Below are positions 6,873-23,046 of a stretch of 32,095 nt of DNA, piece by piece. Each line of letters begins with the position of its first letter. Within the stretch, counting starts at the first letter, position 1. The notes below the pieces were generated by a model, which worked only from the letters and a program-made list of their open reading frames with translations, was not told the origin of the DNA and searched no databases. This DNA is from a virus. A program made the translations under genes and the position numbers. The stretch lies in IMG/VR virus record IMGVR_UViG_3300030090_003172, positions 1 to 32,095 of that record, one strand, 5' to 3'.

Positions 6873-8483
6873 TTATAATAATCCGTACTCACTAAAATCT
6901 AACTCCCTTAAAGCCTCTGGTGTTACGTTTAAAGCCTTACCACCAACAGTTTTTAAATTAATTGGGAATTGTAAATCAAGCAGTTTGGGAACTGTTGGGT
7001 TTACATCTGCCCTTGCTCTTGCCAATCTGCTATCTCTTAATTTATTGGATAAAGCCTGACTTCCCAACCCTGCCAACGTCAACCCTATAGCCGATGGGAG
7101 TCCTAAGTTATAACCAGTAAGCCCTGCCGCCCCCAACCCCGATAAACCACGAGGGTCTAACATTCTTCCGATTGCTCCAGTAGTTTTTTCTGCTACTGAT
7201 GGTTTTACATAATCTAAAGCCCTTGCCTGTTCTGATGGAGATAAATTGCTTACTTTTGCTTCAATATCACTTTCTATCCTGTTTAGCTTTGCCTGTGTTT
7301 GTCTTCGCTTAACCTCTTCTTCAGTCTTTCTTGCTTTTGCATAATTACTTCGTGCTGTGTTCTCTAAACTTATTAAGTCGTTAATTCCCTCTTCTTTTAT
7401 AATAGCCTTGCCCTCTTGTGTCGAATATTCATATTGTAATTTTTTACCACCTTTTTTGGGAGGAGCAAAATTTAAATTATTTCTTCCACTTCTTATGATT
7501 TCGTCCCAACTATTAATCATTTCGCTACTAGCACTTTGATTAACCTTTCCTTTTTTCATATCTTGGGTAATGTCTGCACGAATTTTTCTAAACCCTTCCC
7601 AACTTATAGGCTTTTTATCGTTTCTTATTTTCTTAATTTGGTCTAACAAAGGTTTTTGGTTTTTTGGAGTTGTTGATAGTTGATATTTGTTTGCTATTTT
7701 TTCTAACTCATTTGCAAAATGTTTATTAAATGCAAGTGTTGTTTTTACGCCTAAATTATTTATTTCTTTATATGTTTGACTAGCAATCTTGTCTGCTTGT
7801 TCAAGTTGGGTTGTGCCTTTAAATGGCGACCTACCACTGGTTGCTACCGATGACAATAACCCTGTCACAAATGCCCCTGCTGGATCATCTTTTTCTAATT
7901 GGTCTGCCATTATTAAACCAGTTGGCACTGAAGCAGTAATCTCTGTTTTGGGATTGATTGACAAAAAGTCGGCAAACTTTTCTAGTTGTGGATTTTTTCT
8001 TAAAAAACTTGCATACTTAGCCGCTCCCCCTGCTGTTGACAATAAATTAGATGTTAATAATGCCGCCCTACCTTCTGGCGTGTCGATTTCTGGGAAAGAT
8101 TGTTTAAAGGACGGACTTCTTTCTCCGATCTCTCCAAACACTTTATCTATGCCCTGTCTCAGTGGGCTTTGCCCTGTAACAAGTGACGCTACATAGTCAA
8201 GGAATGGATAACCCATTAATGCAACTGCTCCTGCCGCCGGATTTACTAGCCCGATAGCGGCTGGTAACAACGCCTCCACAGTGCCTCTCGTTGTACCCGA
8301 CACTATTTGATTCATATCCGTTGATCGTTCTGTATTTGTTGCAACCGGACTGGTATTATCTGGAATCATATTAACCAACTGCTCAGTCGTTAGATCGCTT
8401 AATTGTGTCGAGCCTTTACTGTCTACGCTGTCCAGCATTAACTTTAGTTCATCGTCTGACATTTCTTGTAATGTTTTAGCCAT
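6873..8483 (-). CDS. Internal virion protein ending in YGLL
   Basis: A 536-residue protein. The first 55 residues are acidic and helical. Residues about 65-100 form an Ala/Gly-rich hydrophobic stretch (ALLPAAIGLVNPAAGAVALM) that could be membrane-active. The middle (about 230-410) is charged and helical, and a second hydrophobic Gly/Ala stretch lies near 435-480. It ends SEYGLL. No enzyme motif seen. Position between fibre and other head-internal genes, large size and membrane-prone segments suit an ejected protein of the T7 gp14-16 or P22 gp7/16/20 kind; this is inference. It overlaps the next gene by one base (TAATG). Confidence 0.6.
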   Translation of the reverse strand: MAKTLQEMSDDELKLMLDSVDSKGSTQLSDLTTEQLVNMIPDNTSPVATNTERSTDMNQIVSGTTRGTVEALLPAAIGLVNPAAGAVALMGYPFLDYVASLVTGQSPLRQGIDKVFGEIGERSPSFKQSFPEIDTPEGRAALLTSNLLSTAGGAAKYASFLRKNPQLEKFADFLSINPKTEITASVPTGLIMADQLEKDDPAGAFVTGLLSSVATSGRSPFKGTTQLEQADKIASQTYKEINNLGVKTTLAFNKHFANELEKIANKYQLSTTPKNQKPLLDQIKKIRNDKKPISWEGFRKIRADITQDMKKGKVNQSASSEMINSWDEIIRSGRNNLNFAPPKKGGKKLQYEYSTQEGKAIIKEEGINDLISLENTARSNYAKARKTEEEVKRRQTQAKLNRIESDIEAKVSNLSPSEQARALDYVKPSVAEKTTGAIGRMLDPRGLSGLGAAGLTGYNLGLPSAIGLTLAGLGSQALSNKLRDSRLARARADVNPTVPKLLDLQFPINLKTVGGKALNVTPEALRELDFSEYGLL

Positions 8484-10861
8484 TATAATAATCCGTAATC
8501 ATCTGTGCTTGTTTCTCTGTTGATAAACCCTCTTGTTGCTCTGTTGATAAACTCTCTAAACATCTGTAACGCCATATCTACGTCATTATTTGTAGCATCA
8601 AGAAAGTCGTTAAATATACGTCTTGCTCCATCGTCACCTAACATAGGTGCTATTTGCCGTAAAATAGATGTAGGCAATTCTGGCTCAAATGTTCGCTCAG
8701 ATGCTGGCTCAGATGTTGGCTCTCTCTGTACTGGGATTATAGCTTGTTCTGGTAAACTTACAGCCTTGTCTCTTGATTGATTTTCGTTGTCATTGTTTTC
8801 GCTCCTCCTTTTTAACTCTTCTCTCCTTTGTAACTCTGCTTTTATTTTGGCTATTCGTTCCTTTTCGGAAAGTCCCTGCAATTCATTTACGGTCTCTGAG
8901 CTTTTTTCTGACTGTTCATTATCCGCTTGATTATTTTGCCTCCCCTCTCTTGTCCTTATGTATTCTTCTGTATACTCCGCCCAAGACTGACCGCCCTCTG
9001 CTTTGTAATTAGGATTGTATGTCGTTACATACCTTTGATTGACTTGATTAAATTGCTTTGTTAAAAAATCCTGTGCTTTATTTAACGCTTTTTTTAATTC
9101 TTCTTTATTTCTAATCCCTGCCAGCTTTCCTAAATCTCTTTGGAATAACAATAATTCTTTAACGGCTAATTGACCAACCGCACCGCCTGTTGGGTTATCT
9201 GCCCTCATTTGTTGTAATGCTTGATAGCCAACTTTATCTATAATGTTTTGAATAGCCGCAATTGCTTTGTTCATTTTGGGCGTTAGTCGTGAGTTTGGCA
9301 AAAACCGCTCTATCGCTTCTTCTCTCAAATTGTTAAACAATGCTCCTATCGTTCCACTTTGATCTGTTGTTAGCAAATCTAACGACTCCTCATCGTCTAG
9401 CAAGGCACGAATAGAATCTTGTACTTTAACATTCCTTCTCATAGTTGCTCTAATCATCGCATCATCTTTTGGAAACGAATCAATTAGTTTCTTTTTTGCT
9501 TCCAAAAAGTCGCCACGGGGCAACTCTTTTTCTAACATCTTTTCATATTGGGTGCTTAATACCGAAGATGTATTTTGCGTTACTGTTGGATCGATCTCAT
9601 CAGTTTGATTTTCTTTATTTTGCTCTGAAACTTGCGGCTTCGGTTGGCTATCTCTTACTTCGCTTCTAGCCTCTGACGCTACTCCTGTTACCAATCTTCG
9701 TATCTGCTCTGCATATTCTTCCTTGGAAACTAATCGAGCCGAACTTTCCACACCCTTAAATTGCAATTCGTCTTGTTTAAGATTATCCCCTCTCAACTCT
9801 GCTTCTGTTCCAGCTAACCTATATTTAGTAACTAATATTTTTAATTGATCTTGATCTTCTGGACTTAATTCTCTAATTTCTTCATCTTTTAAAAGTGTGA
9901 TGTCTTTAACTTCTGACATAATACCTTTAGGCGAAAGTTTTTGGACAAGTTCTTGAACTTGCAATTTGTCCGTCTCGTCCTTGTAAGGGTTTAATGACAT
10001 TAAAATACTATCAATATCGGTAGGGTCTACATCTGCGTCTAATGCTTTTTGTCTTGCAAATTCTAAATACTTTGTTTTTGTAGCCAAATCTGCAAACTTG
10101 GGATAGCTATTCTTGAGCATTGTCACATATTGTCTATCTTTTTCTTTTTTTATAGCTAACTCTTTAGCTTCTCTTTTCTCAGCCAACTCATTCATAAACA
10201 CCGCTTGCTTTAGTCGCTGGTCGTATAAATCGCCTGTTGCCTGTCTGCCAGCTTGCATTGCCGATGCTATAGCCTCGCCTATTCCTACCCTTGTTGTTTG
10301 AGGAGCACCAGCCCTTAATAGTGCAACACTAGCATTTAATAAACCTTCATCTCTGGCTCTACTCTGTGCCTCTTGCATCTGCTGTTCATCAAGAAGTCCA
10401 TACGTTTCTGGCAACTCTGAGCCTAGCAATCTATCAAGTATTCCCTGCCCTCTTGAGGTGGCTGTGCCAGCCTGACTCTCTACACCAACCTGACTATCTG
10501 CACCGCCTGTCAATACACCAGAAGCTTCCCCTGCCATCGCTCCATCCATGCTCTGGCTGTACTGTCTGTCCTTTTGTAGCCTTTTTGCCTGTCGTGTCTG
10601 TTCTTCTAACTTGGCTAACGCTTGACTCTCAACATTATTAACTGGTGTTAAAGATAACAGATCGCCTTTTTCTGCACCAAGCGGAAAAGTTTCCGCTCCA
10701 CCGTATTCTGCATCAAGGTATGGCAACGTAGGGGAAAGCCCAAAGTCGTTTGTATCCACAGACATCATGCCCATATTTTGACTCATGCCCATTGTGTTAA
10801 GCATTTCCTCTGGAATACTATAAAGTCTGCCGTCACCAAGTCTTACCGTTACCATAGCCAT
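8483..10861 (-). CDS. Large internal virion protein with GLL motifs
   Basis: A 792-residue, largely helical protein and the longest in the window. It starts MAMVTVRLGDG. It carries YGLLDE (154-159), EGLLNA (172-177) and a C-terminal DDYGLL. From about 200 to 420 it is charged coiled coil; a Gln/Asn/Glu-rich linker (about 640-735) follows, then a compact helical end. No lytic transglycosylase or peptidase motif is visible. Likely packaged and ejected with DNA (inference from position and composition). Its start overlaps the stop of the upstream gene. Confidence 0.6.
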   Translation of the reverse strand: MAMVTVRLGDGRLYSIPEEMLNTMGMSQNMGMMSVDTNDFGLSPTLPYLDAEYGGAETFPLGAEKGDLLSLTPVNNVESQALAKLEEQTRQAKRLQKDRQYSQSMDGAMAGEASGVLTGGADSQVGVESQAGTATSRGQGILDRLLGSELPETYGLLDEQQMQEAQSRARDEGLLNASVALLRAGAPQTTRVGIGEAIASAMQAGRQATGDLYDQRLKQAVFMNELAEKREAKELAIKKEKDRQYVTMLKNSYPKFADLATKTKYLEFARQKALDADVDPTDIDSILMSLNPYKDETDKLQVQELVQKLSPKGIMSEVKDITLLKDEEIRELSPEDQDQLKILVTKYRLAGTEAELRGDNLKQDELQFKGVESSARLVSKEEYAEQIRRLVTGVASEARSEVRDSQPKPQVSEQNKENQTDEIDPTVTQNTSSVLSTQYEKMLEKELPRGDFLEAKKKLIDSFPKDDAMIRATMRRNVKVQDSIRALLDDEESLDLLTTDQSGTIGALFNNLREEAIERFLPNSRLTPKMNKAIAAIQNIIDKVGYQALQQMRADNPTGGAVGQLAVKELLLFQRDLGKLAGIRNKEELKKALNKAQDFLTKQFNQVNQRYVTTYNPNYKAEGGQSWAEYTEEYIRTREGRQNNQADNEQSEKSSETVNELQGLSEKERIAKIKAELQRREELKRRSENNDNENQSRDKAVSLPEQAIIPVQREPTSEPASERTFEPELPTSILRQIAPMLGDDGARRIFNDFLDATNNDVDMALQMFREFINRATRGFINRETSTDDYGLL

Positions 10862-11412
10862 TACAATAAACCCCTTCCAAATAATGTCATTTCATCCTCT
10901 AGCCTACCCCTGCCAGCAGGAACAGTCTGCATAGCCATGACGTTTTGATTGTCTCTAAAGAAGTTGGCAGACTGCGGTTGTGCTCTCATACTACGCACCT
11001 CCATCCTGTCCTGCGGTTGCTCCACATTTAATGATTGAGCCAGCCGTAAAGCTGGATTGTTTAAATTATTTCCAAATGTTTTCATCCCCTGCATGAATGG
11101 ATTTATTGCTGGCGTTCCATGAATAGACGCTGTAAATGGATTCACAAGGGCTGGATTATATGCCATAGCCTCCTTGCCTAACGCTCCTATTTGCATTGGA
11201 TTCATTCCAGCCGTTACTAATTGACTCCCAATATACTTACTTGCCGCATCTGCCGCCGCTACTTGAGCCGCCGCATTAGCCGCCGCCACCTTTGCTCCAG
11301 ATGCCGCCGCCCCCATAGCCGCTCCTGTTCCTAATCCTGTTATTATTGCTGGTGTTACTGCCGCAGTTGTCCCTAATGCACCTCCTGCCGCCGCCAATTC
11401 TGCTCCGCTCAT
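10861..11412 (-). CDS. Ala-rich internal virion protein ending in GLL
   Basis: A 183-residue protein. Residues 5-70 are very rich in Ala and Gly with mild hydrophobicity (AAAGGALGTTAAVTPAIITG...), then a Pro/Asn/Met-rich middle and an Arg-containing end finishing FGRGLL. This small hydrophobic protein may line an ejection channel through the host envelope, like T7 gp14 in concept; that is inference. It overlaps neighbours at both ends. Confidence 0.6.
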   Translation of the reverse strand: MSGAELAAAGGALGTTAAVTPAIITGLGTGAAMGAAASGAKVAAANAAAQVAAADAASKYIGSQLVTAGMNPMQIGALGKEAMAYNPALVNPFTASIHGTPAINPFMQGMKTFGNNLNNPALRLAQSLNVEQPQDRMEVRSMRAQPQSANFFRDNQNVMAMQTVPAGRGRLEDEMTLFGRGLL

Positions 11413-12359
11413 GCCAACAAGCCTCCTAACCCTGCTCCTGCACCGATAGCCGCACCAATATTGCCAAACTGGTCGCCACCTATTGCTCGACCTAAACCAG
11501 CACCACCTAAGATATTGGCAAGTCTGTTACTTGTTAATGGTTGCGTTCTTTCGCCTCCCATCGGTGCTCCATATGCCGCTGACAAGAATTGCAGTAGTTT
11601 TTGCTGTGGGCGTTGTTGATAAAAATCAAACCTATTAATAGCATCCCTTAACGCCAATTCATCATATCCTTCCTTCATTCGACCTATTTTTAACAATTTT
11701 TCTGCATCTGTATAATCTTGCATAGCCAGTTGTGGGGCTAATCTTGCCGCAGTTAATTGCCTTGTTAAGTCTCTATCAGACACTTGAGCCATACGGTTTA
11801 AGGCTTGCTCTTGCATTTTTCTTTCGTTTTGATAATTCATAAATGCTAGTTTTCCAGCCGTATCCGTTAATGCTCCAGCAAACGTAGCATCGGTTCTATC
11901 CTGCAAATCCTGACCAGCACCACTGCCGTAACGTCCTGCCCTGCTTAACGTAGATTTCAGTCTTTGCGTGTCATCCTCGTACTTTTGTCTAGCCGCCCCT
12001 GTTGCGGCATCAAACGCCCCTTGAAAGAATGGACTGCCTGTTAGATAACTACCGCCAGCCGTTATGTCTGTCCCTCTCAAGGCTCTGTTTTGGTTAGGAG
12101 ACATGGCAAATTGACCTACTGTTTGCTGTCCTATCCTTGTTAACGGTGAGCCTGTTATAGCCCTTCTCTGTGCCGCATTTAAAGCTGATAGGGTTTGTTG
12201 GCTTGGGTCAACATACGTTTTACCTGGAAAATACGCTGGCATATCAGAACGCTGATACAGCCTTTTTTGCTCTCTTAATCCATAATCTACATAAGGTCGT
12301 AATGCTGGATCAATCTGCTCTCGAACTGTGGTTGTACCACCGCCTCCACCGCCACTCAT
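11409..12359 (-). CDS. Virion protein, probable ejection or tail-tip component
   Basis: A 316-residue protein opening with six Gly after MS, then TTTVREQIDPALRPYVDYGL, a start I recall from many marine podovirus structural proteins. The centre (130-250) is Arg/Gln-rich helical, and the end is Gly/Ala-rich hydrophobic (about 280-316, finishing GAGLGGLLA). Function is not established in what I know. Order (hub, small genes, this, then internal proteins) suggests a DNA-ejection or tail-tip part. Confidence 0.65.
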   Translation of the reverse strand: MSGGGGGGTTTVREQIDPALRPYVDYGLREQKRLYQRSDMPAYFPGKTYVDPSQQTLSALNAAQRRAITGSPLTRIGQQTVGQFAMSPNQNRALRGTDITAGGSYLTGSPFFQGAFDAATGAARQKYEDDTQRLKSTLSRAGRYGSGAGQDLQDRTDATFAGALTDTAGKLAFMNYQNERKMQEQALNRMAQVSDRDLTRQLTAARLAPQLAMQDYTDAEKLLKIGRMKEGYDELALRDAINRFDFYQQRPQQKLLQFLSAAYGAPMGGERTQPLTSNRLANILGGAGLGRAIGGDQFGNIGAAIGAGAGLGGLLA

Positions 12360-12757
12360 TTTGACACCTCCATAACATATCCTCTCGGTTTAAATCCTAA
12401 CTCTTTTGCCATTTTTTCCCAACCCTTTCTCCAGCTATCAAAGGTAATTTTTTCCATGTTTCCCTGTTTTGCTATATTTTGTATTTCGACAAACGCCTGT
12501 TTCATATGGTTAGGCTCATTCGCATAAGCACACCAAATATGTAGCGTTTTATCCTCTTTTGGCTGTAATACTACAAAACCCAATGCTCTGTCATTTTCTT
12601 TAAAAAGCCACAACATTGACCTTTGAAATACACAATCTGCATAAATGTCCTCAGGTATCCACCATTCCGGTGATTTACTTTGAACCTTTGCTAAACCTGT
12701 CTTTACATATTCCCAGACTGTTCTAACTTGTTGCGGTTGTACCATTTCTGCAATCAT
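12356..12757 (-). CDS. GNAT-like protein in virion gene block
   Basis: A 133-residue protein with a GNAT acetyltransferase-like pattern: LGFVVLQ strand (about 58-64), LHIWCAYA strand, a helix (MKQAFVEIQNIAKQG), KITFDS strand, then GWEKMAKELGFKPRGYVMEV at the end. The acetyl-CoA loop (R/Q-x-x-G-x-G/A) is not clearly present, so it may be a structural relative. Start at 12757 or at M5. Similar GNAT-like genes occur beside tail genes in podoviruses; substrate unknown. Confidence 0.6.
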   Translation of the reverse strand: MIAEMVQPQQVRTVWEYVKTGLAKVQSKSPEWWIPEDIYADCVFQRSMLWLFKENDRALGFVVLQPKEDKTLHIWCAYANEPNHMKQAFVEIQNIAKQGNMEKITFDSWRKGWEKMAKELGFKPRGYVMEVSK

Positions 12758-13056
12758 CCTAGCACCACATATTTATAAGTGCAGTCTGCATTTCCATGTG
12801 CTGAATGGGTAAGTGTTGCTGATCCGACTGCTGTAACCGTAAATAAATTATCCATCTCCGCTGACGCATTAGCTGTTGTTGGCATATATAATACTACGCT
12901 ATCCCTGCTAATTCGTGCATCAGTAAGCGTGGTTGATGTTCCACTGCTTGCTAAAGTTATGCTTCCTGTTGAGTTAATTTTGCCACTAAGGATATTATTA
13001 ACAACCTCGGATACGTTTCTTGGTTCATCACCGCTTGGCATTAAAGTTCTAAACAT
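12754..13056 (-). CDS. Small beta-rich structural protein
   Basis: A 100-residue protein rich in Thr, Ser and Val, ending YKYVVLG. The alternating pattern (SITLASSGTSTTLTDARI, SRDSVVLYMPTT) suggests a small beta-barrel or beta-sandwich, as in minor tail or decoration proteins of environmental phages. TAATG junction with the upstream hub gene suggests coupled expression. No specific function known. Confidence 0.6.
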   Translation of the reverse strand: MFRTLMPSGDEPRNVSEVVNNILSGKINSTGSITLASSGTSTTLTDARISRDSVVLYMPTTANASAEMDNLFTVTAVGSATLTHSAHGNADCTYKYVVLG

Positions 13057-14480
13057 TAACGACCACCAGTTGATGCGATTTCAACATCCATTCCCACAAC
13101 CGTTTTCCAATTGCCTGTAGGCTCTAGTTTAAGACGATGGTATTTGCCTACCGATCTAAGCGGCACTCTATTCTCTGTACTAGCCGCCACTGCTGTTGAG
13201 TAGGTTATATCTTCATCGGCTCTTATGCGACTTGCGACCGATACACTACCACTGCCGGAATCAACAACTGGTCTTGCTAATTGAATGATTGAATTACCTT
13301 TAGAGCCAATGTCTGCCGTCCTAATGTCGGCTGTGCTGTTTGTGCCAGTATAGGTTACGATTTTAGTTGCCTCTGTACCAGCTAGTAAAAACTGTCCTCC
13401 AGCCCATATACGGCTGTCTAAGCTGGTATCTAAACTATCAATACTACTGCTGAATACATCAAGCCCCTCTAGTGTAATGCCTCCCTGTGCCGCTCCTGCA
13501 ATAAAATCAGTTGTTGCATCTCCCTGACTCCACCTCTGCAACTGCCAGTTGTAAATGAGTAAACTTTTAGTGCCAGAGTTGTTTGTATACGACCAAATGA
13601 CTAACTTATTAACTGGATCAACAGCACTGCTCATTTCATCTAAATCGCTAAGATTAGCGTTATCAAAGAAAAATCTATCTACCTTTTCTGCTCCGATAGG
13701 AGTTACTGACTGCCCATTGGTAACGTAAAACCCATCATCACTCAAGAAAAAACTATTATTGCCATATTGCACAATGGAGTTTGGTGCATAACAGCCAATG
13801 TTCCTTGAAATAGTATCAAACTGAAAAAACAATGGCGAGCCAATGTACTGCATCCGTACAATACTTTTTTCTAAAAATACTATGCCAAACTCTCCACCAG
13901 TAATGCCTTGAACATCTCCACCATCTGGTATGTCCTGCGTATCTGACTGACTACCACTGCCAGAAGTCCAGTCATCAGGGTCATTAATATCTGACCACGC
14001 AACTCGATTAGGGTAACTGGAAATATTCCCTGATACCACAAAATCTCTTACCGCTGTTAGATATTTAGCTACTGGTGCAGACGCATTCAAATCAGCAAAT
14101 AAACTCGAACTGTTTAACGTGAAACTTTGTAATTTGTTTTGACCGTTTGCCGCTATTACCAGCGAGCCAAATTGGATAAACTTCCAGTTCGTAGTTGTTG
14201 TGTAATTTCCAGTTTTTGATACATTATCTAAATCTAAATCACCTGTATCAAATTTATAAATCTTTGTGGCACTTGCCGCAAACATTGTTGTTAGGTTGTT
14301 AATTTTTCCACTAAACACCGTTAATAGATTTGCATCCGCCGCATCGCTCAATTCAACAGTAGACGGTAAAGGTGCGTAACCACTTCCCACAGGAATGACA
14401 TTTTTTGCCTCCGTTAAAGCACCAGCCAAACCACTTTGATCTGGTAGCCATTCTCCAAATGTTATCCGCTCCGAAGCCAT
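13056..14480 (-). CDS. P22 gp10-like tail hub / DNA stabilisation protein
   Basis: A 474-residue beta-rich protein resembling the packaged-DNA stabilisation/tail hub family of P22 (gp10). Signatures include an N-terminal GEWLPDQSG and AKNVIPVGSGYAPLPS, repeated short strands, WSDINDPDDW (162-171), FFLSDDGFYV (244-253) and LLIYNWQLQRWSQ (307-319), as in a propeller-like hub. In such phages it extends the head-tail connector and holds DNA in. Residues 335-359 match the start of the neighbouring repeat protein in 16 of 25 positions. Located between the adaptor group and ejection proteins, as expected. Confidence 0.75.
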   Translation of the reverse strand: MASERITFGEWLPDQSGLAGALTEAKNVIPVGSGYAPLPSTVELSDAADANLLTVFSGKINNLTTMFAASATKIYKFDTGDLDLDNVSKTGNYTTTTNWKFIQFGSLVIAANGQNKLQSFTLNSSSLFADLNASAPVAKYLTAVRDFVVSGNISSYPNRVAWSDINDPDDWTSGSGSQSDTQDIPDGGDVQGITGGEFGIVFLEKSIVRMQYIGSPLFFQFDTISRNIGCYAPNSIVQYGNNSFFLSDDGFYVTNGQSVTPIGAEKVDRFFFDNANLSDLDEMSSAVDPVNKLVIWSYTNNSGTKSLLIYNWQLQRWSQGDATTDFIAGAAQGGITLEGLDVFSSSIDSLDTSLDSRIWAGGQFLLAGTEATKIVTYTGTNSTADIRTADIGSKGNSIIQLARPVVDSGSGSVSVASRIRADEDITYSTAVAASTENRVPLRSVGKYHRLKLEPTGNWKTVVGMDVEIASTGGR

Positions 14481-15055
14481 GTATCTGTTCCTATAGTATT
14501 GTTAGTCCAAGTCTCACTACCGACTGCTACATCTGTCCACGTTTCTGTTCCCACCGCAACGTCTGACCACTCCTCACCAAGCACTTCACTAGCACAAGCC
14601 GCTAAAGCCGAAGCCGATACCTGTGCCACTGCGGTAATAGTTACGATTGCATCACATGATACTGTTGCCGTTCCGCTAATGGACGCTGACGGTTGCTGAA
14701 CTCTGGCTGAAGCTGAGACTGTTGTTCCGTTGGCTGATATTTGTGCAACGACACTCTGTATTCTAATTCCAGCACTAGCAACACTGCCACTACCGGATAC
14801 ACTTCCTACTCCATTTTGTATTCGTGTGCCAACGCCAACTGCTGTAGCCGATCCTAATACACTGCCAACTACCTGTTGTATTCGTGTTCCTACGGCTGTT
14901 GTTGCCGCACTGCCAGATACGCTACCGACTCCATAGAAAACTGTTGTATCACTGCTCTCCCATATTGCGTTGTCTAAACTAAACGCAAGATCATCAATAC
15001 TTGTACTGAATAAGTCAAGTTGCTCAAGCGTAAACGCTCCGTTTACATCTGACAT
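14462..15055 (-). CDS. Tandem-repeat structural protein
   Basis: A 197-residue protein of three parts. Residues 8-32 (FTLEQLDLFSTSIDDL...IW) match an internal segment of the adjacent hub. Residues 44-160 are six tandem units of about 20 residues (for example GSVSGSAATTAVGTRIQQVV), nearly all Gly/Ser/Ala/Val/Thr with a recurrent RIQ. Residues 161-190 are three 10-residue units of the type EWSDVAVGTE. The first repeat suggests a stacked beta structure such as a beta-solenoid. It may be a short fibre or hub-attached appendage. It overlaps the hub gene by 19 bases. Confidence 0.65.
   Translation of the reverse strand: MSDVNGAFTLEQLDLFSTSIDDLAFSLDNAIWESSDTTVFYGVGSVSGSAATTAVGTRIQQVVGSVLGSATAVGVGTRIQNGVGSVSGSGSVASAGIRIQSVVAQISANGTTVSASARVQQPSASISGTATVSCDAIVTITAVAQVSASALAACASEVLGEEWSDVAVGTETWTDVAVGSETWTNNTIGTDTWLRSG
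14486..14926 (-). repeat. Coding tandem repeats (60-bp and 30-bp units)
   Basis: 14576-14926 encodes six 60-base units (the last shortened), clearest in the first three, which share G-S-V-x-G-S and x-R-I-Q at fixed spacing. 14486-14575 encodes three 30-base units with VAVG(S/T)ETW. The units are diverged in DNA, so they are old or under selection rather than freshly expanded. Confidence 0.8.
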
Positions 15056-15442
15056 TTATGCAAGTGTTACTGTAAGTGATCCAGCCGCTATTTTTAAAAT
15101 ATCTCCAGTTGCTATCGTTTTGCTTGCATCCAAAGCGGTGTAGTAATACATATTCCCACTTGAACTCGCATCCCATATGCCTATGTGACTCACCGTACCC
15201 CATGACCCTGTTGCCTGTGGAAAGTTAATATCTGCACTTGTTGTAGATACTCCGTTACTTGGCGCGGCAAATGTTGCCGCCTGTCTTGCATAGGCTGATC
15301 CGCTTAACTCTGACCCACTTGCATCTTCATCAGGATTTGCCGTGTGCAAAGACACATATACTGCACTAGGAGCAGACAACGCTGAGTTTCTAAGCGTATG
15401 ATTGATTAATGCGTTCTCTAAATAATTAGACATTTCAGACAT
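15056..15442 (-). CDS. Conserved phage structural protein (minor tail type)
   Basis: A 128-residue protein starting MSEMSNYLENALINHTLRN, then VYVSLHTANPDED and YARQAATFAAPSNG, with WGTVSHIGIWDASSSG near the centre. This is a widely conserved phage beta-sandwich family I associate with minor tail/gp80-like proteins. GGAGA ribosome site upstream. It sits between the adaptor and the hub group; exact virion location unknown. Confidence 0.7.
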   Translation of the reverse strand: MSEMSNYLENALINHTLRNSALSAPSAVYVSLHTANPDEDASGSELSGSAYARQAATFAAPSNGVSTTSADINFPQATGSWGTVSHIGIWDASSSGNMYYYTALDASKTIATGDILKIAAGSLTVTLA

Positions 15443-15445
15443 AAT

Positions 15446-16066
15446 TTATTTCTCCGTTAATTTCATAGTGAGCGGTACGCCGCTGTACTGCGATTGTATT
15501 GCCGTTCTGTTTAATGAATCAATCGACCTCTCCAGCATACTTGCCCACACTTGTATTCTGTTGTCGTTCATTAAATACGGCTCTGCCTCTACCAAACTTC
15601 CGTAAAGTAAAGCATCAGGGGCATTTGCTAAAAATGTATTGCTTGCATTAGTGTCAGATAAAAACTCTGGCTCTGCGTAATACAACAACTGAAACGTGTA
15701 ATTACTATCGGGTGCTGGTGCGAAGTTAAACTCACTAGCCAGTATTGTATAATAATTTGGCTGTCCACTCTCTGTTGCCCGACCGTTAGCTGTAAAAGCC
15801 GATGGAGTTAAATACTGCAAACTTCCCCTCGGATTAGTATCCACATAAATATCTCTAACCTCTAAAAAATCACTAGGCAACGCTACGGTTCCATCACCAC
15901 TGGTCGCACTCGCACTAACGCCTTTAAGCATCGTCCTTAGTCTTAAATCACGCCTTAGTCTATTTTCTGCCAACGTAATAAAGTCTGGTATCTGATCTGT
16001 TAAATCAGTTCTACCTAGATAATTGGCAATAGATGTTTTTAAGGTTGTATACGTGGTAAACGCCAT
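15446..16066 (-). CDS. Head-tail adaptor (SU10-type)
   Basis: A 206-residue protein with the typical adaptor start (YTTLKTSIANYLGRTDLTDQ), FITLAENRLRRDLR, LPSDFLEVRDIYV, and the late segment LLYYAEPEFL followed by APDALLYGSLVEAEPYL. This pattern matches the adaptor proteins of phage SU10 and many environmental podoviruses, which form the ring below the portal. It overlaps the upstream small gene by one base. Confidence 0.8.
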   Translation of the reverse strand: MAFTTYTTLKTSIANYLGRTDLTDQIPDFITLAENRLRRDLRLRTMLKGVSASATSGDGTVALPSDFLEVRDIYVDTNPRGSLQYLTPSAFTANGRATESGQPNYYTILASEFNFAPAPDSNYTFQLLYYAEPEFLSDTNASNTFLANAPDALLYGSLVEAEPYLMNDNRIQVWASMLERSIDSLNRTAIQSQYSGVPLTMKLTEK

Positions 16067-16368
16067 TATAACTGTCCAGCCCTTGTCCTAAAAAAACGAT
16101 TATCAGGGTGATTAAGAAATGCCAAAAACTTCTTCTGATCCAGCACTTGAAATCCCTTCATAATCCCTTTGTGGTTTAAATCATCAATAACAGTAAGCGG
16201 AATACTAGCCACCTTATTGCTTACTGGCTCTCCAGACCAACGAGTATGTTTTTTTGTTTCATTAAATTGTTTTTTATTGCTTTCAACTATGCCCGAAACA
16301 TCTTGCGTAGTCTCAATGACAATACCGCCCTCGCCATCGGCATGAGCCTTTGTCTGTCTAAAATCCAT
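16066..16368 (-). CDS. Conserved small protein between coat and adaptor
   Basis: A 100-residue charged protein (HADGEGGIVIETTQDVSGIV at 9-28, ending FLNHPDNRFFRTRAGQL). I recall relatives at the same place, after the coat gene, in cyanophages and marine podoviruses; no role is known. Clean ribosome site (GGAGTAGCT-ATG). It is preceded on the message by the structured gap at 16369-16447. Confidence 0.7.
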   Translation of the reverse strand: MDFRQTKAHADGEGGIVIETTQDVSGIVESNKKQFNETKKHTRWSGEPVSNKVASIPLTVIDDLNHKGIMKGFQVLDQKKFLAFLNHPDNRFFRTRAGQL

Positions 16369-16391
16369 AGCTACTCCAAAAAGGGGGAGGA

Positions 16392-16437
16392 GGACAACAA
16401 GGAGAGGTGATTAGGCAGTCCAAGTTGTCCAACCTCT
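16392..16437 (-). promoter_or_regulatory. RNA stem-loop, possible pseudoknot, after the coat gene
   Basis: On the leftward transcript GGACAAC (16430-16424) pairs with GTTGTCC (16398-16392), extended inside by GGA/TCC (16421-16419 with 16403-16401) across a 2x2 mismatch. AGAGGT (16437-16432), just upstream, is complementary to ACCTCT in the loop (16408-16403), allowing a pseudoknot or a competing hairpin. A T5 run lies nine bases beyond, so partial termination is possible. Confidence 0.5.
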
Positions 16438-16447
16438 AGGGTGAGGA

Positions 16448-17401
16448 TTACTCCGTTAGATCGCCAGCTATTCCATGAGCCGCCTCATTTCTTACCTCAA
16501 GCGTCCACTCTGCAAGTAGCTGTTTCTTCTCTGCGTCACCAGTTTTTGCCAGATCAACTGTTTGGAATGGTCGTAGATATGCCACTGACAGCATTTCTGG
16601 ATCAACAACCAAAGCAATCTCTCCATCATCCGATTCTGTTGCTGTGTTCATCAATCTGTTTGGTACAACAGACATAGTGCCAAAATCTGACATATAGACA
16701 TCAGCCGCACCTATAATGGTGGTTGGTTCATCCGATGGAGCAAGATACCTTTGTGCCGCTATGCCTGAGAAACCAGACAGCGTAACTTTTTGGGTAGCTG
16801 GAACTAGGATGACTTTTGGATCGCCACCAGAATTGTACGTTTGTTTGATGACGTTTTTAAGAATGGTCTCGGTAAAAGCCCGATCTGTTCCATTTCCTCT
16901 GGCGGTTGTGCCAGAAGCACCAGCAGTGCCGCCTGATCCTAAATCCTTGTTAGATGCAAGCCAAGCCTGTATGCCACCAGCCGCTCTTGCGGTAGAAGCA
17001 TTGCCAGCAGAAGCCGTTTCGTTGGAAACCAAAGTCAATTCCATGTCTCGTTTAATTTCCTTGCCGACTTTAGCCATCTGATATGCCATCTCACTTTTTC
17101 GACCTGCCTTGTCGACTGCCTCGAGCGTGCCAGCCACCTTCACGGTTTTGGTACTGATCTGGCAATAATTTCCAACTCTTGTGGTTGGTGTTGCGGTTAT
17201 GTCTGAACCATCTGCACCCTCAACGGCTTTGTTATGTGCCGCCGCCGCTAGTGCATCTGTTTGCCATTCGTGAAAAACGGCTGTTGCCTTGCCTTTGCCA
17301 ATAGAGGACATCATAGGAGTCTCTGTTGGTGTAATCATATAGATTACGTCCGACAAATCCTCACGCTCTCCAATGGCTTGAAATGTTTGATATGTTGCCA
17401 T
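16448..17401 (-). CDS. Major capsid protein (DUF5309-type)
   Basis: A 317-residue coat protein with the HK97-like family pattern often annotated DUF5309/SU10 coat: MATYQTFQAIGEREDLSDVI, ITPTETPMMSSIGKGKA, WQTDALA, then GNYCQISTKTVKVAGT, and the late YMSDFGTMSVVPNRLM. It starts directly downstream of the scaffold gene with TAGGAAAATATC-ATG. The usual order portal-scaffold-coat supports the call. No protease gene is present, and the N-terminus looks unprocessed. Confidence 0.88.
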   Translation of the reverse strand: MATYQTFQAIGEREDLSDVIYMITPTETPMMSSIGKGKATAVFHEWQTDALAAAAHNKAVEGADGSDITATPTTRVGNYCQISTKTVKVAGTLEAVDKAGRKSEMAYQMAKVGKEIKRDMELTLVSNETASAGNASTARAAGGIQAWLASNKDLGSGGTAGASGTTARGNGTDRAFTETILKNVIKQTYNSGGDPKVILVPATQKVTLSGFSGIAAQRYLAPSDEPTTIIGAADVYMSDFGTMSVVPNRLMNTATESDDGEIALVVDPEMLSVAYLRPFQTVDLAKTGDAEKKQLLAEWTLEVRNEAAHGIAGDLTE

Positions 17402-17410
17402 GATATTTTC

Positions 17411-18415
17411 CTATCCTAATATACGTTCAAATACAGCTTGAGCATCTCTGGTGTTACCTGATTTTCTAAGCTGTGCCTTTAATTTTTTGGTTTGCTCTAC
17501 TGCGTTTGATGATGATGCCCTTGTGCCAGACTTCAGCATCTTCGGTGCTTTTTGTACCCTTTTCTGCACCTCTGGATTGCTTTGCTCTAGCTTATCGAGC
17601 AACATAGCTTTATGGAGAACTTGCACCATACGGCTGTCTACAACAGAGCCTAATTCTTGATCGGTAAACCCCATTTTTTTACCATAGGATTTAATATCCG
17701 CCCTAAGTTGTTTACCTTTTTCCGCATCCGCATAATCCGGTAGTGCTGACGCTAACTTTTGTTGTTCCTGAGATAACAACTGTTGATATTGAGCTTGGTG
17801 TTCCGCTTGTTGCTCTCTAGCAATTCGGTCTGCTTCCGCTAACATCTTCTGCTGTTTCTCTTGAATCAAAACTTTGTCGGCAACCGCTTTATTATACGCA
17901 GTCGGGTCGGTTTCTCTTAGTCGGGATAACTCCTCACTGGACGGCTGACCTTGTTCTAGGTACTCGTTCATGGCTACCAACCGTTGTGCATAATCATCCC
18001 TCTTTATTTTTGCTTCTTCGATTGCTTTCATACCAGCGTTATACTGTCGCTCTTTTTCATCGACAGCTTTAGCCTTCTCTGCAATCTTAATGGTTTTACG
18101 AGTGTAATCAGACATCCGTTGATAACCATGTAGAAGTTCATCAAGGGTCACATCCTTCTCTTCCATCTTTCCGTCAACACCTTTGACTTTAATCCGGTGA
18201 GTAGGTTGCTCCTCTATAACCTCTTCGGCTTCTTCGGGTGCATCCGCCATCTGCTCTTCGGTTTCCTCGACCATTTCCACTTGCCGTTGTTGCTCCTCCT
18301 CTTTCGGAGGCTCATTGTCGGTGCTTCTATCGTCCATTAATCCCTCAAACTGGATTGCGGCTTGTTTTACTGTTACTGAAGTGTCCCCTGCTGTGGGGGT
18401 TGCCCCTTCGCTCAT
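17411..18415 (-). CDS. Capsid scaffolding protein
   Basis: A 334-residue protein, very rich in Glu, Gln and Lys. An acidic N-terminus (35-75) is followed by THRIKVKGVDGKMEEKDVTLDELLHGYQRMSDYTRKT (spread over about 72-107), a long coiled coil (110-225) and a basic C-terminus (about 285-334), the part that binds coat protein in known scaffolds. Good ribosome site (AAAGGG). Its position just upstream of the coat gene is diagnostic. Confidence 0.85.
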   Translation of the reverse strand: MSEGATPTAGDTSVTVKQAAIQFEGLMDDRSTDNEPPKEEEQQRQVEMVEETEEQMADAPEEAEEVIEEQPTHRIKVKGVDGKMEEKDVTLDELLHGYQRMSDYTRKTIKIAEKAKAVDEKERQYNAGMKAIEEAKIKRDDYAQRLVAMNEYLEQGQPSSEELSRLRETDPTAYNKAVADKVLIQEKQQKMLAEADRIAREQQAEHQAQYQQLLSQEQQKLASALPDYADAEKGKQLRADIKSYGKKMGFTDQELGSVVDSRMVQVLHKAMLLDKLEQSNPEVQKRVQKAPKMLKSGTRASSSNAVEQTKKLKAQLRKSGNTRDAQAVFERILG

Positions 18416-18419
18416 AGTA

Positions 18420-18665
18420 TTACCCTTTGTGTTGTTGCAAAATCTTTAGCTTATTATTAAATATTGCTTTCTCTGATGCAATAGATTCAAAATGCGACTC
18501 TATCGCCTGTATCGCTTTAATCATTCTGTAAGCGTTCTCTCTTTCTTCATACTCAAACGCTCCACTGTTTCCAATTATATCGTAATAGCTACCTATCAAC
18601 TTTTTTAACTGATTTGCAAAGAAATCATCGTTTAATAAATTGGATGCCCTCTCTGCGTCTGTCAT
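18420..18665 (-). CDS. Small helical protein between portal and scaffold
   Basis: An 81-residue helical protein (DAERASNLLNDDFFANQLKK..., ending KLKILQQHKG). Similar small genes sit at this place in related phages; no function known to me. ATG overlaps the portal stop (ATGA), so translation is coupled to portal. Confidence 0.65.
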   Translation of the reverse strand: MTDAERASNLLNDDFFANQLKKLIGSYYDIIGNSGAFEYEERENAYRMIKAIQAIESHFESIASEKAIFNNKLKILQQHKG

Positions 18666-20689
18666 TGAGGACTCGCTATGTTCACGTTGCCTGTGATGCC
18701 AGCACCGACCTTAGCGGCTTTAAGCGTTGCCTCTGCCTCAAACTCTTGGCGTTTCAATTCTAATTCAGCTTGTAGCTCTTCACGCTTCAACTGCATCTGA
18801 GCTTCCGCTTTCTCCCTAGCCAGTTGTATGTCTGCCTGTGCTTTCTGTTGTTGTACTTGTATATCAGCCTGAGCCTTTGCCATCATCGCTTGTAAAGCTG
18901 GATCGGCTTGTGGCTGTTCTTGTGGCTGTGCCAACATTTGCTCCATCTCTGGACTTATCTCCTTGAAAAACTCGGCTGAGTCTGCAAAACCTGCCGCTTC
19001 GATAAACCTTCCTAACGTCTCTCTGTACTGCGTGAGACTGACTAAAGGATTGTTTATACCATATCCTTGAATCACTTGCTCCTGTTTTGAGAGAACCATC
19101 TGAAGCATAGCCATCTGTTCTTGCTTATCGCCAGTTCCCAGACCGACATTAATGCTTACATCGTACTGAGTGGACCATTGGCGAGGATCCATTTGCACAT
19201 ACTGACCTCGCAGTCTTAAAACGTGAGCCTTGTCCTGATACTTACAAACTAATTGCAAGATGCCTTTAAATAAAGACTTAACGCCTGTCTCTGCAAAGAT
19301 TCTGGCTATTAGCTCTAACTTACCTCCAGCCGCCCTCGTTGTAGCCGCTACCGCCGCCGCTGTGACGTTCTGCAATATGTTAGGGTCTAGCCCTTGCTGT
19401 GCATCACTGATGCCACTACGTTTAGCCTGTACAGCGTCCAAATACTCCAACATCGGAAACGCCTGATTAGCTATGGGAGACACAGTAAGAGGAACAACAG
19501 CGTTGGGGTTTTTCATCCGAACCACCCCACCAGCCGTTACGGAAAGCAAATCATCAAGATTCACCTGTCCCTCTACTGCACCCATCCTGACGTTGTTGGT
19601 TAAATATAAATTATCAAGCATCTGCCTGACAACTTGTGATTTAATCAACTGTAAATCTGCCGCCCTGTCTGCCAATGATTGCCCATAAAATTTATGCGGT
19701 ATGGGAATCGGGCATAAACTGTGAAACGGCACATAGTCCGTCTCTTCATTTTCCAAAATTTGATTACCAGCATATACAATGCGTCTAAGTTCTGCGATGC
19801 CGTCACCATCAAAATCAGTGCGTAAATACATCTCGTAGACTTCTGTGGTCTGCATTGAACTATCTAGGGAATCTTCATCAGGTCGCTCGGCATTACCAAA
19901 TCGTGCTGACCGCTCACTGGTATAACTCAAATCATCATATATAGGCAAAGTCTCTATGATCGCTGGATCATAACCCATAGCCACTAACTCACTCTTGGTC
20001 GTTAGCTTTCTATGAGCAACAAAGGGGCTATCCTCTATTGTTCTGCCCTTCTTTGAGATTAAAAATTCTTCTGGCGGTACATTTTCAATAACCACCTTGC
20101 CAATAATGTTTGTTTTCTGAATGACAACATTATGGCTTCTGAGCATAACTGGTTGCCCTAATTCATCGACTTGTCCACTCTCTACCTCTACTGTCTGCTG
20201 TTCAATGACCTCGACCTTGCCATCAGACATTAAACTGGTTAATTCAAGATCGGATAGGTTCTCGTACTGCTCCTTTGATACATCGGTTGATTCATCATAG
20301 TAAGCCTTGATAACGCCAACCTTTTGCAACAAAGCGTCTTTAAACCAGTTATGAAGTAGTAAAAAGCCCTCGTTCTGTGAATTAAAGACATGATTGCAAT
20401 ACTCGGTAGCCTGTCCTGCACCCTCTTCGTCACCCTGATTGCGTGGCTCAAATCGTACTATTTCATCAGACTGCGTAAATATACGAACCAGTTGTGGCAA
20501 CGCACCATCAATGACTTCTGCCACCTCTCCAGTAACGATCTGACTTCGACCCTCGACCTCATTGCCGTACTCCTGTCTTAGATAATATTCAAGCGACTTT
20601 TGCCGTTGGTCTGTCGTCTCGCTCTGTAGGAATCCGATTGCTGAGTCTAGTTCTGCCTCGATTATCCCTTTGAGTTTGCCTTCTTCCAT
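18662..20689 (-). CDS. Portal protein
   Basis: A 675-residue portal of the P22/SU10 size class. The clip/wing region shows VTGEVAEVIDGALPQLVRIF (about 53-72), GVIKAYYD, EFLISKKGRTIEDSPFVAHR and PFHSLCPIPIPHKFYGQSLA, all typical of podovirus portals. The last 85 residues are a Gln/Ala/Glu-rich coiled coil (ADIQVQQQKAQADIQLAREK...), which in P22 forms the long barrel inside the head. Expected to form the twelve-fold DNA channel. Confidence 0.88.
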   Translation of the reverse strand: MEEGKLKGIIEAELDSAIGFLQSETTDQRQKSLEYYLRQEYGNEVEGRSQIVTGEVAEVIDGALPQLVRIFTQSDEIVRFEPRNQGDEEGAGQATEYCNHVFNSQNEGFLLLHNWFKDALLQKVGVIKAYYDESTDVSKEQYENLSDLELTSLMSDGKVEVIEQQTVEVESGQVDELGQPVMLRSHNVVIQKTNIIGKVVIENVPPEEFLISKKGRTIEDSPFVAHRKLTTKSELVAMGYDPAIIETLPIYDDLSYTSERSARFGNAERPDEDSLDSSMQTTEVYEMYLRTDFDGDGIAELRRIVYAGNQILENEETDYVPFHSLCPIPIPHKFYGQSLADRAADLQLIKSQVVRQMLDNLYLTNNVRMGAVEGQVNLDDLLSVTAGGVVRMKNPNAVVPLTVSPIANQAFPMLEYLDAVQAKRSGISDAQQGLDPNILQNVTAAAVAATTRAAGGKLELIARIFAETGVKSLFKGILQLVCKYQDKAHVLRLRGQYVQMDPRQWSTQYDVSINVGLGTGDKQEQMAMLQMVLSKQEQVIQGYGINNPLVSLTQYRETLGRFIEAAGFADSAEFFKEISPEMEQMLAQPQEQPQADPALQAMMAKAQADIQVQQQKAQADIQLAREKAEAQMQLKREELQAELELKRQEFEAEATLKAAKVGAGITGNVNIASPQ

Positions 20690-20786
20690 TTTTAACCTTT
20701 TTCTCTAATTCGTTAACTCGACTAACCAACTCCATAAACTCTGCCCTGCTAACCTCAATCTTGCCCTTTGGCGTTAGTATCATTGG
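20589..20786 (-). CDS. Small gene overlapping the portal 5' end
   Basis: A 65-residue frame starting MILTPKGKIEVSRAEF with a short coiled coil (MELVSRVNELEKKVKN) and an Arg-rich tail that is read in a second frame across the first 101 bases of the portal gene. AAAAGG nine bases before the ATG supports translation. The tail may be passive overlap. I prefer this start over the longer frame to 20834, which lacks a good ribosome site. Confidence 0.5.
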   Translation of the reverse strand, partial: PMILTPKGKIEVSRAEFMELVSRVNELEKKVKNGRRQTQRDNRGRTRLSNRIPTERDDRPTAKVA

Positions 20787-20835
20787 AATATACCTTTTTA
20801 TTTTATAAAAACCTTTGTTTCTCTTAACCTTCAAA

Positions 20836-20870
20836 ATTATAGCCTAAACGCCTTGAACCTACTGTATAAT
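20836..20870. promoter_or_regulatory. Back-to-back -10 boxes between portal and rightward gene
   Basis: TATAAT occurs on the minus strand (20841-20836) and on the plus strand (20865-20870), facing away from each other towards the portal operon and the gene at 20895. Neither has a convincing -35 at 16-18 bases, so these are weak or activator-dependent candidates. Confidence 0.35.
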
Positions 20871-20894
20871 TGTCCTTTCAACAAGGAGAATCTA

Positions 20895-21065
20895 ATGGAC
20901 AAATTAAGCGATAGGCTGGGCAACCGAAAGATAATAGTTGAGAGTATGTTAGAACACGCCCCGAATCTTGGGTTTGATGACATACATGAGTTTGATAAAC
21001 TTGTTTGCGAATCATTGCATATCGATCAAGAGGATAATCCACCGCTATTCCTTCGTTTCTGGTAA
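20895..21065 (+). CDS. Small rightward gene inside the leftward late block
   Basis: A 56-residue acidic protein (MDKLSDRLGN...DNPPLFLRFW) with a strong ribosome site (AAGGAGAATCTA-ATG) and TATAAT 25 bases before the ATG. It is the only convincing rightward gene between 2.2 and 26.6 kb, and its stop abuts the stop of the leftward gene at 21066. Helical with a Pro/Phe-rich end; no family recognised. It may be an independently expressed added gene (moron). Late transcripts would be antisense to it. Confidence 0.7.
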   Translation: MDKLSDRLGNRKIIVESMLEHAPNLGFDDIHEFDKLVCESLHIDQEDNPPLFLRFW

Positions 21066-22457
21066 TCAACGTAATTTAGTAAAATCCATATATGTATCTA
21101 TAAGTTCTTGGTCTACGATTTGGTATGGCATTTTCCTTTGAAGGATATACGCTATGTTTGCCGCAGACAAAGGGTTTCCACGTTTGTCTGTTACTCCCTC
21201 TAGAGATTTGTAAAAATCTCTCATTAATACTTTTCTTGGCACAGTGTCCAGCAGTCCACCTTTATACTCTCCAAATAATTGACTGGTGTAAGTGCTATGA
21301 GGAAATTTTACATCACTGCTTGGTTTTTTAGATAAGTCTAATGCGGCTATTCCAGCACCAGTATTTTCTGATAGAGCGTTTTTTAAAACATCCTCGGTAA
21401 CGGCATAACGAGCCTGTGCAACGCTTGGAAATCCAGCGTTTTGATACAAACCACTGTTCATTAACTTTACAAATTTCTTTCTTACGGCAGGGTCGGCAGT
21501 ATCTAAATATGACCTTAATCCATCATCGGTTAATTTCGGAAAATTTGTTATTTTTTTATATTTTTCCGATCCAATTTTAATTGTCGATCTCATTTGCTTC
21601 TCGAAACGAGATATATCTTGTTTTTTTATTTTAGAAAACGGCAACATCTCTGCCAATGTTGAAGCTGGAAATGTTGCAAAATCTACCGCATCTTTTCCCA
21701 TTGATGAGTATACGATGTTAACAGGCAATCCAGTCTCCTCGGCAATCCTCGATACTGCATTATGTATCCGCGTTGGTATACCTTCATTTGAAGCCCATAC
21801 CGCTCCCTCTGAGGGATTTGACCTCATAAAGTAAACCCCACCATCGAGTGGCACTGGCGTTTTAAATTTGTTGCCTCCAATGCCGACCAAATTACTTCCG
21901 GCTTTGCTCTGATCGCCTAAAACTGGAAACAACACAGAGCCTTGCAAATCTTCTAGCTTTATTTTCTTTTCGGGTGCAAGAACTTTTTGGTCAACATACT
22001 CAATATCAAGTTCACTCAAAGGCTCGGTTAATAAACCTTTGTTGCCATAACCAAGGGGGTCTATTTGTTCTTTCGTTAACTTTTTTTTCTTTACCGGAGC
22101 AATGCCAGCCGCTTTTTCTTTCGTCATTCCCTCTGCGATAGGCACATTGTCCAATCGTTTTCTAACAACAGGAATCACTCCAGCCGCCACCAGTCCTGTC
22201 GCTGTCTTTGCAAGACCAGCCGGACTCACAGCCGAACTAATTAACTCCGCTGTTTCATTAAGCAATCCTGTTTGCGGTGGTGGCAGGAAGCCCCTCTCTG
22301 TTAGGTAAGCCGTTGACCCAACAATGTCCTCCGGACGTTGCATACCAGTGAGCGTCAATGGCAGACCAAGCAAATCAATAAAGCCTGTAGCTAACTGTGG
22401 GACTCCCCTTGCTACTGATAGCCCCAACTTTTTTAATAACTGATCTAACTCGTCCAT
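21066..22457 (-). CDS. Polyvalent-type protein with large-polyvalent-protein domain
   Basis: A 463-residue protein. The N-terminal third has hydrophobic and basic stretches, with GLLNE (64-68) and GLLTE (141-145). From about 168 to 275 runs a domain I recognise from large polyvalent phage proteins: LQGSVLFPVLGDQSKAGSNL, LDGGVYFMR (205-212), WASNEG, VNIVYSSMGKDAVDFATFP. Such domains occur in proteins delivered into the host. GLLDT follows at 401-405. It sits between terminase and portal, separated from the portal group by a rightward gene. The domain call comes from memory; the activity is unknown. Confidence 0.55.
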   Translation of the reverse strand: MDELDQLLKKLGLSVARGVPQLATGFIDLLGLPLTLTGMQRPEDIVGSTAYLTERGFLPPPQTGLLNETAELISSAVSPAGLAKTATGLVAAGVIPVVRKRLDNVPIAEGMTKEKAAGIAPVKKKKLTKEQIDPLGYGNKGLLTEPLSELDIEYVDQKVLAPEKKIKLEDLQGSVLFPVLGDQSKAGSNLVGIGGNKFKTPVPLDGGVYFMRSNPSEGAVWASNEGIPTRIHNAVSRIAEETGLPVNIVYSSMGKDAVDFATFPASTLAEMLPFSKIKKQDISRFEKQMRSTIKIGSEKYKKITNFPKLTDDGLRSYLDTADPAVRKKFVKLMNSGLYQNAGFPSVAQARYAVTEDVLKNALSENTGAGIAALDLSKKPSSDVKFPHSTYTSQLFGEYKGGLLDTVPRKVLMRDFYKSLEGVTDKRGNPLSAANIAYILQRKMPYQIVDQELIDTYMDFTKLR

Positions 22458-22473
22458 AATGCCTTACTTTGCT

Positions 22474-23046
22474 TTAAAGGTTAAGATATCGCATAAGTGA
22501 TTCAAGATTCTCTAGTTGCTCCTGAGTAAATGCCCTTTTATCCCACTGCCCTAGAGCACCTCTAAATATTCCAGCATCATCAGAGATATTTTTCCACTGC
22601 TCAAAACTTCTAGTCTCTTTAGGTTGATCCGTTGTAGGATTGGCTAGGTATCTTTTTTGACCTAATCCATCGACATAATAACCCCGACTGTAATCCCTGT
22701 AACGCCTTCTCTGAGCATCTAACTGATCTGGTGTTAATGACTCAATAAGTTGCTCATATGATCGCTTTACCGTTGGATCAGTCTTTATTGCTCCATGCGA
22801 GATATAGTCTAGCAGTATTTGATACGGAGTGGTTTCTGGACTAAACACGCCTATTGTTTCTTTGCCCTCTGTGCCTTCTGGTCTTCTTGGTTCATCGGCT
22901 GGATAAAACTCTAAAAGACCACCGCCTATATTTTCTATGGGTGGGTTGTTCAGTATCTTTACCTGATTTTTTTTCAGTATCGGATACCTCTTTAGAGCCA
23001 TTTCTATCGCCCTCTGTCGTTTCTCGTCCTCTGTCAAACCACCCAC
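22474..23046 (-). CDS. Hypothetical protein between terminase and polyvalent gene
   Basis: A 190-residue protein with a basic helical start, NIGGGLLEFYPADEPRRPEG (40-59), and an aromatic, Arg-rich second half (RRRYRDYSRGYYVDGLGQKR). I recall similar proteins next to terminases in marine phages; no function known. It shares the GLL motif with its neighbour and the internal virion proteins. The start overlaps the terminase end by 13 bases. Confidence 0.6.
   Translation of the reverse strand: MGGLTEDEKRQRAIEMALKRYPILKKNQVKILNNPPIENIGGGLLEFYPADEPRRPEGTEGKETIGVFSPETTPYQILLDYISHGAIKTDPTVKRSYEQLIESLTPDQLDAQRRRYRDYSRGYYVDGLGQKRYLANPTTDQPKETRSFEQWKNISDDAGIFRGALGQWDKRAFTQEQLENLESLMRYLNL

Follow-up and report, generated by a model that had tools for sequence, protein, structure and literature searches.

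In bacteriophage T4, the capsid targeting sequence is a short terminal peptide that is found on unrelated injected head proteins and is thought to direct them into the prohead. Encapsulin cargo-loading peptides are short, mostly C-terminal and Gly/Leu-containing, and they load unrelated cargo into an HK97-fold shell. Here, we analyzed a short motif, Gly-Leu-Leu (GLL), that recurs in the ejection operon and in a polyvalent-type protein of a podovirus-like phage, IMG/VR record IMGVR_UViG_3300030090_003172. The stretch of DNA analyzed, called the window in the following, is the entire 32-kb virus record (positions 1 to 32,095). Ejection proteins show almost no sequence conservation between phages (PMC8954989), and polyvalent proteins are predicted to be packaged and injected (Iyer et al., 2017, PMC5512222). 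In this setting, we found GLL above chance and confined to proteins expected to be head-loaded and injected, as the slot statistics and the payload module described below indicate, in agreement with the short linear tag that a first-pass annotation of the window had proposed.

Results

All GLL copies listed in the first-pass annotation were present in the translations of the proteins named, including three consecutive genes with exact GLL ends. We refer to the products of the ejection operon by slots, A being the protein of 316 residues, B that of 183, C that of 792 and D that of 536, all encoded on the minus strand. Slot B (10861-11412) is an open reading frame for a Gly/Ala-rich ejection-operon protein ending FGRGLL (GLL codons at 10864-10872). 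Slot C (8483-10861), an internal virion protein supported by a family alignment, ends DDYGLL immediately before its stop codon (GLL at 8486-8494) and has two internal copies, one at residues 155-157 (YGLLDE; 10391-10399) and one at residues 173-175 (EGLLNA; 10337-10345). Slot D (6873-8483), for which no homologue was found, ends SEYGLL before the stop codon (GLL at 6876-6884); it contains a further copy, TGLLSS at residue 208, which was absent from the earlier list and has no support as a tag. On the same strand, the 463-residue polyvalent-type protein (21066-22457), with terminase on one side and portal on the other, carries GLLNE (64), GLLTE (141) and GLLDT (401), and its 190-residue neighbor (22474-23046) carries GLLEF at residue 43.

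GLL outnumbers every other tripeptide in the window proteome, and its 11 copies all lie within six proteins, namely those of slots A to D, the 463-residue protein and its 190-residue neighbor. Within-protein shuffling gave an expectation of 2.2 copies for those six proteins (P < 1e-4); across the whole proteome, the count was only mildly raised over the 4.97 expected (P = 0.012). Terminal GLL was observed three times among the 47 genes against 0.022 expected in the same shuffling. Because GLL was picked after looking, the test was extended to any tripeptide: some tripeptide ended at least three of the 47 proteins in 0.115% of shuffles, which allows for the post-hoc choice, and none ended three consecutive genes in 20,000 shuffles (0/20,000). 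Post-hoc chance was rejected on these tests. The shuffled-proteome count that the annotation had called for yielded an excess of total as well as of terminal GLL.

For comparison, about 240 related loci were fetched by the coat protein, the A family and the C family. Gene calls came from a simple script, slots were assigned as offsets from the A homologue, and both steps were automatic; slot counts were taken after removal of near-duplicates, and family counts depend on single-linkage clustering. GLL occurred within the last 10 residues of 15 of the 68 slot D proteins (0.33 expected), corresponding to 7 of 15 families, and of 6 of the 80 slot C proteins (0.36 expected). None was seen there in the nine upstream slots (0/439) or in the downstream slots +4 and +5 (0/116). 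Within the last 15 residues of slot D, GLL was the most enriched of all tripeptides, both by family vote (P = 2e-6) and by protein. Slot B relatives ended in [SGNT]L[LIM]G? in 62 of 96 cases, as opposed to 1 of 810 proteins elsewhere, and slot C relatives showed ends of the form EFGL[LMV]x. These signals persisted when the window, its close relative L002 (coat 96% identical) and the loci from the GLL-adjacent query were left out (Fisher's exact test: 7e-11 for D, 6e-22 for the N-terminus of C and 9e-41 for B). In the same reduced set, at least one of the three proteins B, C and D was terminally tagged in 29 of 33 loci, compared with 0 of 28 upstream triples. The 21 tagged C and D tails fell into 10 groups that share no BLAST similarity over the 100 residues ahead of the tag, and the motif has therefore been kept or gained in unrelated surroundings. 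L002 itself keeps RGLL on its homologue of the 183-residue protein (as FGRGLL) and also the N-terminal motif of C. The annotation's proposal would have failed had GLL shown no excess or no conservation among relatives; both points were tested, and an excess and a conserved motif were found.

Slot A (11409-12359, minus strand), which matches PHROG 4287 'DNA ejection protein', has a Gly-rich tail ending GGLLA at the stop codon, and GLL was found within the last 10 residues of 16 of 58 relatives. These GLL(G) tails were set aside as tags because they are Gly-rich and many family members end in GGK; the composition suggests a glycine zipper in the 316-residue protein rather than a tag. Relatives of slot A fall into two groups by their C-terminus, which is Gly-rich GLLG in one (for example, L022-L081) and GGK in the other (for example, L164-L241). 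The annotation had also counted GLLEF of the 190-residue neighbor among the tags. That copy exists, but the protein has no relatives in the fetched loci and its membership in the tag system is unsupported. Neither this copy nor the tail of the 316-residue protein is probably a tag.

The internal copies of slot C required a separate look at the C family. In an alignment of 27 sequences, most of them only ~15-22% identical to the window protein, an N-terminal Y..GLL..GLL motif was conserved; apart from the initial Met, an invariance of 90% or more was reached only by leucines of the two GLL motifs (window residues 155-157 and 173-175), L156 being one of the two such columns. GLL lay within the first 30 residues of 49 of 80 slot C relatives, where 1.3 were expected, and in the window protein the first copy is displaced by an N-terminal extension of ~140 residues. 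An AlphaFold2 model of the 792-residue protein, mostly helical and of low overall confidence with a pTM of 0.39, puts the first GLL in a loop and the second within a helix; the last 11 residues form a low-confidence tail, which suggests that the C-terminal tail is probably disordered. From the alignment and the modeled placement, we therefore read the first GLL as tag-like, the second as conserved but probably structural, and the C-terminal one as a tag. The internal copies are thus of mixed kind.

The 463-residue protein begins with a module of ~90 residues (22188-22457, minus strand), for which a scan found 36 loci. GLL at module positions 64-66 (22260-22268 in the window) is kept in nearly all of them, and the remainder of the proteins behind the module falls into 12 unrelated payload clusters. 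The module loci include the window, L064, L072 and L260-L295. Among the payloads, Pfam matches to ART-PolyVal, LPD23, Zeta toxin and PBECR5 were obtained; the payload of the window protein itself had no Pfam match, and the module had neither a Pfam nor a PHROG match. As in polyvalent proteins, a constant N-terminal part with exchanged C-terminal domains is present, and the module is predicted from sequence to be a plug-in carrier for injected effectors. In addition, 5 of 20 distinct payload proteins had GLL within their last 12 residues (0.12 expected). Together, the module and the payload tags tie the motif to being injected rather than to membership in a channel.

When the A protein of Microcystis phage MJing1 was used for a scan, the loci found, together with phiM5 and HTVC106P, showed the same habit in a second lineage, a distant and different group of mostly high G+C content. 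Here, C proteins start with MQGLLD, MFEGLLS or MAEGLLD, D proteins end in RRGLLD, and B proteins end in GGLLDG, GLMGG or KGLLDDE. The phiM5 record marks its internal proteins, gp28 among them, as detected in phage particles, and gp28 ends PKGLL. The neighboring genes 14314-14697 and 14702-16225 of Pseudomonas phage PaP3 (L246) encode SGILS near the C-terminus (KSGILSKLFGG and GSGILSRPAPK), which is possibly a variant of the same tag. A protein of PaP3 matches a solved ejection protein of Pa223.

The surroundings of the tagged genes are those of a podovirus ejection operon. Family scans of the window identified an SU10-type portal and adaptor, phage coat and scaffold families, and a terminase, and the morphogenesis operon lies on the minus strand. 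The order is a stabilisation-type tail protein (13056-14480), two small genes, slots A to D and then a tail-fibre protein, matching the synteny of such operons, in which A, B, C and D lie on the structural strand between the stabilisation-type gene and the tail fibres. The nearest solved structures for portal and coat are those of Pa223. Profiles of A and C returned no convincing relative of solved structure; the model of the A protein, with a pTM of 0.31, was of still lower confidence than that of the 792-residue protein, which had no significant fold match in the PDB. The coat-protein scan found no prophage relatives in bacterial genomes.

Discussion

Selection on GLL and its restriction to this class of proteins are well supported at the level of sequence. 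We put the chance that GLL is a protein-level docking motif, marking virion-loaded, injected proteins for a common partner, at slightly better than even; the binding, the sharing of one partner and the action at the loading step are what we infer. The motif would typically read hydrophobic-[G/S]-L-L/I, either as the very end of the protein or with a small or acidic residue next, and would sit close to the ends of proteins that these podoviruses presumably pack in the head and inject. Slots B, C and D would carry it, in most cases at the C-terminus and, for C, close to the N-terminus as well, and the GLL-bearing N-terminal module would carry swappable polyvalent effector payloads. During procapsid assembly, a single conserved site on a shared virion partner, located at the portal vertex, may capture the exposed tails. 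Candidates for this partner are the portal, the scaffold and the 316-residue A protein, and the capture would recruit the tagged proteins into the head. More tentatively, and with less than an even prospect in our view, GLL could represent a general virion-loading code of podoviruses, in which any protein can acquire a terminal GLL, one conserved portal-vertex receptor reads it, and ejection proteins and effectors are exchanged as plug-ins.

Several observations weigh against a docking motif. L002, with a nearly identical head, has no GLL end on C (PESI) or D (EYAP), so conservation among relatives, which the annotation had proposed to check, holds for the motif but not gene by gene; the tags are therefore read as partly redundant or exchangeable. 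About half of the slot D families also have no GLL end, and slot B mostly has SL[LI], which may be a different motif. The residue following GLL showed no excess match between the C and D tags within a genome (P = 0.97), and thus no phage-specific flavor of the tag was seen. Escherichia phage SU10 and Rhizobium phage N3_2 had no comparable tails in the genes examined. The direct evidence comprises enrichment, restriction, recurrence in unrelated proteins and the second lineage, all of them read from sequences.

At 8476-12560 of L002, the C-terminal part of the 792-residue gene and the entire next gene are exchanged, with a sharp border between conserved head genes and mosaic ejection genes. In the window, both YGLL-stop ends share 15 identical bases, TACGGATTATTATAA (6873-6887 and 8483-8497, minus strand), that occur nowhere else in it and may record a recent exchange.

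The tags could instead act after ejection, holding the ejected proteins together or at the tail tip while the trans-envelope channel forms. The concentration of tags on the three main ejection proteins is in line with this, as are the last five residues of T7 gp16, which are conserved and needed for infectivity (PMC8954989). Polyvalent-type effectors, which would not be expected to act in a channel, bear the motif too, and we regard a purely post-ejection role as unlikely, albeit worth a serious hearing. Somewhat less probable still is that the tagged proteins end in GLL through common descent or a similar C-terminal fold, such as a helix end, with no docking motif involved. Many C proteins with EFGLx ends are indeed homologous, but the dissimilarity of the 10 tail groups upstream of the motif and its N-terminal position in some proteins and C-terminal position in others speak against common descent as the source. 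Some slot B tails (RRRLSLL, KERPMISLL) are basic and then hydrophobic, which recalls C-degrons, and hydrophobic C-termini might serve as ClpXP-like degradation signals for the turnover of injected proteins. We consider this very improbable, as it leaves the N-terminal copies and the GLLGE and GLLD ends unexplained.

It is slightly harder still to credit that the motif constitutes prohead-protease cleavage sites. The T4 gp21 site is (L/I)xE, and GLLDE, GLLNE, GLLTE, GLLGE and FGLTE fit L-x-E. However, many tags stand at the extreme C-terminus (GLL-stop, GLLD-stop) with nothing left to remove, and the family scans of the scanned genes found no head-maturation protease, only an M15 peptidase. The least credible of these explanations, to which we assign next to no weight, is a nucleotide-level by-product, in which the tag codons overlap the next gene at its ribosome-binding site or start. 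Within the window, this has some appeal: the stop codons of the 183- and 792-residue genes overlap the next ATG (TAATG), and the ends of the 183- and 316-residue genes contain GGAAGGGG or GGAGG. Downstream of the 536-residue gene, on the other hand, there is a separate AAAGGA site, most relatives place the next gene's ribosome-binding site beyond the stop codon, and 18 different codon triplets encode the tags in the relatives. Such codon diversity contradicts an overlap with a Shine-Dalgarno sequence or start codon as the cause, which was rejected, and the N-terminal copies would also be left unexplained.

If a shared docking motif is indeed at work, it would account for the sorting of such dissimilar proteins into the head, and as yet unrecognized injected proteins of metagenomic phages could be searched for by sequence. 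The question of recruitment becomes testable through small tail deletions. Our search of the literature, which covered open-licence papers, found no description of a GLL motif in ejection proteins.

LUZ24-like and phiM5-like podoviruses likewise have an SU10-type portal and adaptor, a stabilisation-type protein and three or four internal proteins, and no terminal tag is described for their ejection operons in the papers found. The relatives of the 463-residue protein carry the same payload domains as described polyvalent proteins, and the main text of that study does not mention GLL (PMC5512222). T7 gp16 is comparable as an ejection protein whose extreme C-terminus is conserved and needed for infectivity (PMC8954989); the T7 end is positively charged and belongs to a single protein, whereas GLL is shared. 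Encapsulin peptides have in common with GLL that they are short, mostly C-terminal Gly/Leu tails, but their consensus differs, and they bind the inner face of an HK97-fold shell protein. Removal of the peptide by a prohead protease at (L/I)xE, as in T4, was not indicated here, with no such protease in the scanned genes. The T4 capsid targeting sequence nevertheless offers a likeness, in that proteins that are injected but otherwise unrelated share a short peptide at one terminus. The T4 peptide is N-terminal and is cleaved off, whereas GLL is mostly C-terminal; a T4-type N-terminal position is found here in the slot C motif (49/80), whereas the tags of B and D are at the C-terminus.
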